A stretch of 64,000 bases of DNA from Crassaminicella thermophila (lineage in GTDB: Bacteria > Bacillota > Clostridia > Peptostreptococcales > Thermotaleaceae). Of the stretch, positions 42,413 to 48,530 are shown one piece after another; the stretch's first letter is position 1; each line of letters begins with the position of its first letter. A model generated the notes under the pieces. That model made no database searches. It had not been told where the DNA came from and saw nothing but the letters and a program-made list of their open reading frames with translations. The position numbers and the translations under genes are program-made. Location of the stretch: positions 1,245,026 through 1,309,025 of the forward strand of contig NZ_CP042243.1 of the NCBI RefSeq assembly GCF_008152325.1, read 5' to 3'.

Positions 42413-43732
42413 GTGGCAGAAAATGAACAGAAAAATGTTATTTCAAAGGTTTATGAAAAAAGTAAAGCACAAAAATTAGGGATAGAGAAGGGCGATAAAC
42501 TTCTTAAAATAAATGGTTGCTATATTGAAGATATTATTGAATATATGTTTTTATTATCAGATGAATATATAGAATTAGAGGTAAAAAAAAAGGATGGATC
42601 TATAAAGAGATATTCAGTGTATAAAGAGTTTGATGAAGATTTAGGTATTGAATTTGTGAATCCTATTATAGATAAAGCGAAAAGTTGCAGAAATAAATGT
42701 GTCTTTTGTTTTATAGATCAATTACCTCCTAATATGAGAAAAACCCTATATTTTAAGGATGATGATTCAAGACTTTCATTTTTGCAGGGAAACTTTATAA
42801 CACTTACAAATATGTCTGAACAGGATATAGAAAAGATTATAAGATATAGAATCAGTCCTATAAATATTTCTGTTCATACAACAGATCCAGAACTTAGGGT
42901 AAAGATGTTGCATAACAAGAAAGCTGGAAGGATATATGATATTCTTAAGAGATTTTCTGATGCATATATAAGAATGACTGGACAGATTGTATTATGTCCT
43001 GGTATTAATGATAAAGAGAATTTAGATAAAACAATTAAGGATTTATCTAAGCTTTATCCTAATATGGAAAGTGTTGCAATTGTACCAGTAGGAATAACAA
43101 AGTTTAGAGAAGGTTTATTTCCTTTGACTATCTATAATAAACAATCAGCATTAGAGGTAATAAAGCAGGTAGAAAATTTGCAAAAAATTTTTTTGAGAGA
43201 GTTAGGTACACATTTTGTTTATTTATCAGATGAATTTTATGTTTTAGCAGATAAAAAATTACCTGATTATGATGATTATGAAGGGTTTCCACAAATAGAA
43301 AATGGTGTAGGTCTTATGGTAAGATTTGAACATGAAGTTATTACTGCTTTACAAGAGCTAAATATAACTATTTCAGAACCAAAAAAAATCAGTATAGCTA
43401 CAGGTAAATCTGCAAAAGCATTTATGACAAATTTGTGTAAAAAAATTGAGAAAAAGTTTTATAATATAAAAATTAATGTATTTGAGATAAAGAATAATTT
43501 TTTTGGTGATACAATAACTGTAACTGGATTGATAACAGGTACAGATTTAATTGAACAATTAAGAGAAAAAGCATTAGGAGATAAATTGATTATACCGGCA
43601 TGTATGCTAAAAGCAGAAGAGCCAGTTTTTTTAGATGATGTAACTGTTAAGGATTTAGAAAAAATATTAAATATAAAAGTAGTTGTTTCAAAAGTAGATG
43701 GAAAAGATTTTGTTAATAAGATATTAAAATAA
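42413..43732 (+). CDS. DUF512 radical-SAM-like protein with N-terminal PDZ-type domain
   Basis: A 439-residue protein of unknown function conserved next to der in Clostridia. A PDZ-like segment (about 1-70, [28 protein letters not shown]) precedes a cysteine motif C92-x3-C96-x2-C99 (in [19 protein letters not shown]), which fits a radical-SAM [4Fe-4S] site, then the DUF512 domain with [16 protein letters not shown] and late [19 protein letters not shown] 42404 is also in frame; AGGTG is better spaced for the GTG at 42413. The substrate is unknown. Confidence 0.88.
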
Positions 43733-46892: not shown

Positions 46893-48372
46893 ATGGAAAA
46901 ATTCGATATATATAATGATATTGCAGAACGGACACAAGGAGATATTTATATAGGCGTTGTAGGACCAGTTAGAACAGGCAAATCCACATTTATCAAAAGA
47001 TTTATGGATCTATTGGTTATACCTAATATTGAAAATGCATATAGAAAGGAAAGAGCAAAAGATGAACTACCTCAAAGTGGTGCTGGTAGAACAATTATGA
47101 CTACAGAACCTAAATTTGTGCCAAATGAAGCTATAGAATTAACACTAAAAGATAATGCAAAATTTAAAGTTAGGCTTGTGGATTGTGTTGGTTATCTAGT
47201 AAATGGTGCAATTGGACACGAAGAAAATGGAAAGGCTAGAATGGTAACAACACCTTGGTATGAGAAAGAAATTCCATTTGAAGAAGCTGCAGAGATAGGT
47301 ACGAGAAAAGTGATTACAGACCATTCTACTATTGGATTAGTTGTTACAACTGATGGTACAATAACAGATATTGAAAGAAGTGACTACATAGAAGCAGAAG
47401 AAAGGGTAATAAGAGAGTTAAAAGAGTTAAATAAGCCATTTGTTTTAATTTTAAATTCTACAAAGCCTACAGATTCAGAAACAATTGAATTAAAAAAACA
47501 ATTAGAGGAAAAATATAATGTACCAGTTATTCCAACTGATTGTGCAAAAATGAATATAGAGGATATAAACAGTATATTAGAGAATGTTTTGTTTGAGTTT
47601 CCAATTAAGGAAATTAATATTACACTTCCAGGATGGGTAGAAGGACTAGAAACAGATCATTGGCTGAAGGATAAAATTATTTATGCGGTAAAGCAATGGG
47701 GGCAAGAAGTTAAAAAGATAAATGATGTAAGGAATGAAGTAGCTAAATTTATAGATATTGAAGTAATATCAGAAGCAAACTTAACTGATATTGCGTTAGG
47801 TGAAGGAATTGCACATATTGAAATGAAAACAAAAGATGGATTATTTTATAATATTTTAGAAGAAATGACGGGATATAAAATTGAGGGAGATCATCAATTA
47901 TTAGGGCTTATTAAGGAATTTTCAAGAGCAAAAAAAGAATATGACAGAGTAGAGAAAGCATTAAAGGATGCAAAAGAAACAGGTTATGGTTTAGTTGCGC
48001 CAAGTCTTGAGGAGCTTGAATTACAAGAACCAGAAATTTTCAGACATGGAAATAGATTTGGAGTGAAATTAAAAAGCTAATGCGCCATCACTCCATCTGA
48101 TAAGAACAGATATTGCTACAGAAGTATCTCCAATTGTTGGAACTGAAAAGGAAAGTGAGGAATTACTAAAATATTTATTAGATGAATTTGAATCTGATCC
48201 AACGAAAATATGGGAGACAAATATGTTTGGAAAATCATTGCATGATATGGTAAAAGAACAACTACAGCATAAATTATTTATGATGCCAGAAGATGCAAGA
48301 TTTAAGATGCAAAAGACATTGCAAAAAATTATTAATGATGGTAGTGGTGGCTTAATTTGTATTATTTTATAA
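46893..48372 (+). pseudogene. spoIVA: Spore coat morphogenetic ATPase SpoIVA, interrupted by a +1 frameshift
   Basis: Mother-cell ATPase that polymerises on the forespore surface and anchors the coat and cortex assembly. The intact part (46893-48080) has the Walker A GPVRTGKST near the start, VRLVDCVGYLVNGA and the middle domain, and stops after FGVKLKS at 48078-48080. Past the stop the next frame continues the family C-terminus: ANAPSLHLIRTDIATEVSPI, VGTEKESEELLKYLL, GKSLHDMVKEQL and a final GSGGLICIIL. Removing one A from the A5 run at 48071-48075 gives exactly 492 residues, the normal SpoIVA length. The lost segment includes the region needed for SpoVM interaction. Confidence 0.9.
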
Positions 48373-48402
48373 TAGATAGGGAGGACTCCCTATCTATTTT
48401 AT
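48371..48402 (+). terminator. Intrinsic terminator of spoIVA
   Basis: Perfect 12-base arms AATAGATAGGGA / TCCCTATCTATT with a GGAC loop. It starts at the restored-frame stop codon, further evidence that the gene extends to 48372. Confidence 0.85.
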
Positions 48403-48453: not shown

Positions 48454-48530
48454 CTGGGTGTGGCGCAGTTTGGTAGCGCGCTAGAATGGGGTTCTAGAGG
48501 CCCCGGGTTCAAGTCCCGGCACTCAGACCA
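48454..48530 (+). tRNA. tRNA-Pro (anticodon GGG)
   Basis: All arms fold: acceptor CTGGGTG / CACTCAG, D stem GCGC / GCGC, anticodon stem CTAGA / TCTAG with the loop ATGGGGT, T stem CCGGG / CCCGG with TTCAAGT, discriminator A, and an encoded CCA. The loop gives anticodon GGG after U33, with G37 as in other proline tRNAs. It reads CCC/CCU. Confidence 0.95.

Follow-up and report, generated by a model that had tools for sequence, protein, structure and literature searches.

The sporulation gene spoIVA of Crassaminicella thermophila is interrupted in the deposited genome sequence, which raises the question whether the organism carries a broken gene, bridges the break during expression, or has an intact gene that the assembly misrepresents. 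In the stretch of 64,000 nucleotides analyzed here (referred to as the window), an ATG opens a spoIVA frame whose stop codon (48078-48080) lies just 3' of a run of five adenines (A5); positions 48060 to 48080 read GGA GTG AAA TTA AAA AGC TAA. Directly behind the run, the next frame continues with ANAPSLHLIRTDIATEVSPIVG...GSGGLICIIL up to a stop codon at 48370-48372. The coordinates of all features are compiled in Table 1.

Comparison with the NCBIfam model TIGR02836 (492 positions) placed the two pieces flush, with neither gap nor repeat between them. The first piece scored 647.9 bits (cut-off, 459.9), and the second matched far beyond chance even by itself (E = 2.3e-47). Combined, they make up a full-length match to this equivalog model above its cut-off, yet not in a single uninterrupted frame, as the continuation after the first stop codon lies in the next phase. 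As written, the first frame encodes the ATPase domain (PF09547) and 158 of the 179 positions of the middle domain (PF20438). The final 22 middle-domain positions and the entire SpoIVA_C domain (PF20439) are missing from it and lie in the second piece. A hairpin with a 12-bp stem reaches into the restored stop codon and has a T-rich stretch behind it. The preliminary description of the locus, which had placed the break at the A5 run 98 codons before the proper end and had proposed a canonical C terminus in the next frame, a restored protein of exactly 492 residues, and a terminator hairpin at the restored stop, is thus borne out.

Table 1. Features of the spoIVA locus and breaks within conserved families found in the genome survey (positions are those of the window unless another locus is named)
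Feature	Position	Strand	Basis or content
spoIVA, first piece	46893..48080	+	395 aa as written; TIGR02836 1-394, PF09547 1-237, PF20438 1-158
A5 run, point of frame change (spoIVA break in the survey)	48071..48075	+	sequence, alignment with relatives
spoIVA, second piece in the next frame	48076..48372	+	98 codons plus stop; TIGR02836 395-492, PF20439 1-76
Terminator-like hairpin, loop of 4, T-rich tail	48371..48398	+	folding, -15.8 kcal/mol
tRNA-Pro (GGG), next downstream gene, neighbor outside the finding	48454..48530	+	
NuoF-like subunit, break	L108 near 16990	-	family model spans junction
PtsG, break	L109 near 3345	+	family model spans junction
IspH-S1, break	L114 near 6842	-	family model spans junction
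Nicotinate phosphoribosyltransferase, break	L115 near 3597	-	family model spans junction
DUF4430 protein, break	L108 near 744	+	family model spans junction
Chemotaxis receptor, break	L110 near 18852	+	family model spans junction
PrdR-like regulator, break	L106 near 11960	+	family model spans junction; not at an A-run

The nearest relatives of the genome are Marinisporobacter, Anaerophilus, Thermotalea, and Geosporobacter. A SpoIVA match was obtained in 24 of the 40 relatives searched, and each of these 24 harbors an open frame of at least 492 amino acids with no internal stop. Nearly all spoIVA loci fetched by homology keep one frame throughout an alignment that spans the 492 codons completely or almost completely, while the few shorter alignments end at the edge of a contig or stretch or lose the match earlier. 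The comparison with relatives that had been proposed earlier therefore found spoIVA uninterrupted wherever sequence covers the gene, and the break shared by none. At the break site, TTA AGA GCN is the sequence of most close relatives, and CTA AAA GCN that of some more distant ones. Among the aligned loci, the A-run is not conserved, being absent from most close relatives.

These alignments bear on the idea that +1 ribosomal frameshifting or transcriptional slippage at A5, programmed or tolerated, yields full-length SpoIVA, a reading that we consider very unlikely. An A-run is present, the C-terminal codons are conserved, and conserved frameshifting does exist in the lineage (larC, see below). 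A conserved translational event is nevertheless close to excluded because none of the aligned relatives shares the break, in agreement with the lower rank that the preliminary description had given to such an event; selection would have no conserved site to act upon. The shift required in spoIVA is +1, whereas -1 frameshifting is what known A-rich heptamers such as A_AAA_AAG promote. Moreover, none of the A-rich heptamers in the published list occurs at the spoIVA site (TTA AAA AGC), and A5 is shorter than published slippage runs, which exceed seven adenines (PMC3711429). The 70 bases downstream of the break fold at -11.3 kcal/mol, a raw folding value to which we give no weight, and AGC, used at 5.4 per thousand codons, is uncommon but not absent in the genome.

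Compared to the nearest relative, the displaced 98 codons show 94.9% amino acid identity, versus 86.9% for the upstream part, and their changes are concentrated in third positions with the usual excess. Hence, the sequence downstream of the break displays no decay or relaxed constraint and is at least as conserved as the part upstream. The C-terminal part of spoIVA has therefore remained under selection into the very recent past, or is so still.

The relaxed constraint of a pseudogene is thus missing, although the absence of decay would also fit a very young mutation, which would look alike. The main rival explanation, possible but rather unlikely, is accordingly that the sequenced culture or strain acquired a genuine frameshift very recently. 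The deposited sequence does read A5, loss of sporulation genes in laboratory culture is well known, and cultivation without selection for spores could permit such a loss. Without the C-terminal domain, sporulation would stall, leaving a misassembled coat and no heat-resistant spores. This sits poorly with C. thermophila, a vent bacterium and moderate thermophile for which terminal endospores have been described. Neither C. sporogenes (PMC11076785) nor C. difficile (PMC6436350) forms heat-resistant spores without SpoIVA, spoIVA mutants of the former showing coat swirls (PMC11076785), and in B. subtilis, SpoVM is bound by the C-terminal region of the protein (PMC6436350). If PF20439 were truly lost, proper assembly of the coat would be expected to fail. 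With a real break, the strain would be predicted to be spore-less, and spoIVA would be marked as a pseudogene by automatic annotation.

The frequency of comparable breaks was estimated across the genome, which comprises 3,083,380 bases in two contigs of 3,046,753 and 36,627 bases. The survey covered the window and 40 evenly spaced 20-kb stretches (864 kb, about 28% of the genome). A coding-frame model trained on long open reading frames (ORFs) served to list those frame changes that have no plausible start codon; the candidates were inspected by eye, making the classification partly manual, and family models were then used to determine whether one family extends across the junction. This coding-frame scan with family profiles revealed eight breaks within conserved families, seven of them at short A-runs (most of the eight at A4 to A8), with frame shifts of both signs. 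The breaks fall in metabolic and housekeeping genes, and each is isolated, with intact sequence on either side. An independent homology test recovered three of the eight, namely, those in spoIVA, IspH-S1, and nicotinate phosphoribosyltransferase. Within the window, no break besides that in spoIVA was recognized in about 51 kb compared, so that the lone break is compatible with the estimated rate and lends it no local support. Extrapolation of 8 breaks per 864 kb gives roughly 29, or about thirty, indels per genome.

Two further possible breaks, in a Cache-type sensor (L110, about 16200) and an HNHc_6 gene (L117, about 15186), were not included in the count, as none of the family models was shown to cross the junction. 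Among the rejected candidates, those in L108, L126, and L139 were dismissed as insertion sequence (IS) elements with orfA/orfB frameshifts. The coaBC-priA, ecfA1-ecfA2, and csaB-tagA candidates (named by eye) are neighboring genes without a strong start, L111 16560 is a split into two genes that has a start codon of its own, L129 6720 is a tRNA region, and position 43680 of the window reflects antisense matches. Three near-identical IS3-like transposase genes were observed (L108 8744-7422, L126 8342-7374, and L139 11173-12357); each is divided into two frames around TTTTTTAAAAAAG, the arrangement that a programmed orfA/orfB frameshift would produce. As a separate observation, the first 20 kb of the 36,627-base contig (L092) had almost no DNA match in a plasmid collection, except for 59 bases that coincide with a gene annotated as phage major capsid; this second replicon may be a phage-like plasmid.

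As a control, the identical scan was applied to 480 kb of one relative (G010) and 460 kb of another (G007), which yielded 9 and 14 candidates, respectively. By inspection, these were neighboring genes or IS elements, and unclear pairs, e.g., cas1-cas2 (named by eye), turned out to be separate genes. No break inside a conserved gene was recognized by this manual classification in the 940 kb, compared to eight in 864 kb of C. thermophila, an excess of isolated indels over the relatives. Assuming equal rates, the chance that all eight fall in this genome is about 0.003, a figure that, given the manual classification, serves as a guide and not as a formal test. If the spoIVA frameshift were a genuine mutation, the seven other breaks within conserved families in the sampled 28% would need a separate explanation.

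Such an explanation could be sought in a mutator or phase-variable lineage in which A-run lengths switch, spoIVA included, and the several breaks at A-runs in both directions fit this idea, which we nevertheless regard as extremely improbable. The mismatch repair gene mutS is open at full length (904-amino-acid frame), and so is mutL (638-amino-acid frame). Because both genes are whole, a general indel mutator is not indicated, and their integrity likewise argues against a genuine mutation in spoIVA. To our knowledge, runs of 4 to 5 adenines are not typical phase-variable tracts. Phase variation typically targets surface genes, whereas the breaks found here are in metabolic genes.

Since eight breaks were found versus none in the relatives, the sequence downstream of the spoIVA break shows no decay, and mutS and mutL are intact, we favor a sequencing error: the extra base in spoIVA is probably an uncorrected single-base assembly error. 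The preliminary description had left the choice open between sequencing error, loss of sporulation, and a translational event; these options stand, and the present data add a preference for the first. The seven breaks besides spoIVA are likely assembly errors as well, leading annotation to call genes broken. That they are errors and not mutations of the sequenced culture is what we infer from their pattern. With an erroneous base in the assembly, the organism itself would have a regular spoIVA of 492 codons and produce normal SpoIVA, an ATPase which polymerizes around the forespore and is anchored via its C-terminal region.

The rest of the sporulation program was also considered. A family-model scan found spoIIGA, sigE, and sigG whole in the window, so that the earlier statement that the surrounding spore genes are intact holds for those scanned. 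A sipL-like gene with a 531-amino-acid frame and three SipL repeats is present. The sigK gene is interrupted by an insert of 2,549 bases (L132 17020-19568; G000:C1:1442020-1444568) in which an intact ORF, opposite in orientation to sigK, encodes a serine recombinase of 511 amino acids; all other ORFs of the insert are 118 amino acids or shorter. AATGAAAT is found at both ends of the insert, and joining of the flanks gives an in-frame, canonical-looking SigK. The insert looks like a very small skin-type element. An excisable insert in sigK together with an intact recombinase ORF suggests that sporulation is maintained. As the other sporulation genes appear maintained, an intact spoIVA is favored but not proven. 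Spores could in principle still be made with a real A5 if recoding by ribosome or RNA polymerase at short A-runs restored the frame; this would have to be unusually frequent, across several broken-looking genes, and seems hardly credible to us.

If the spoIVA break is an error, about thirty genes in this genome may be wrongly called broken. This matters wherever metabolism or sporulation ability is inferred from this genome.

Set against known systems, the locus resembles the SpoIVA family (TIGR02836; PF09547, PF20438, and PF20439) in holding all three domains at full length, spread over two frames with 492 codons, and differs from it by the frame change after codon 394, which occurs in this record alone. 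A second comparison is provided by larC of the same genome (L123 near 10296, minus strand; G000:C1 2859848-2861040), whose LarC1 and LarC2 frames are split at an A9 run. As in spoIVA, two overlapping frames jointly encode one protein. Nine of the relatives searched share the larC split at about the same codon, and a few encode the protein in one frame. The larC split is a conserved frameshift, probably programmed, and shows the trace to be expected of true programmed frameshifting; the spoIVA split, in contrast, is at A5 and in this genome alone. LarC presumably corresponds to DUF111. An analysis of 1,106 prokaryotic genomes for frame transitions treated a DUF111 cluster as recoding and assigned singletons of category (i) to sequencing error and not to genuine indels (PMC3711429). 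Gene fragmentation by indel errors that persist in bacterial long-read assemblies has been described (PMC12007338). The cause of the breaks in C. thermophila, unlike there, is deduced from the sequence pattern alone, and this pattern matches the described errors in consisting of isolated one-base indels, mostly in homopolymers, that affect conserved genes with intact flanks and occur in excess over related genomes.
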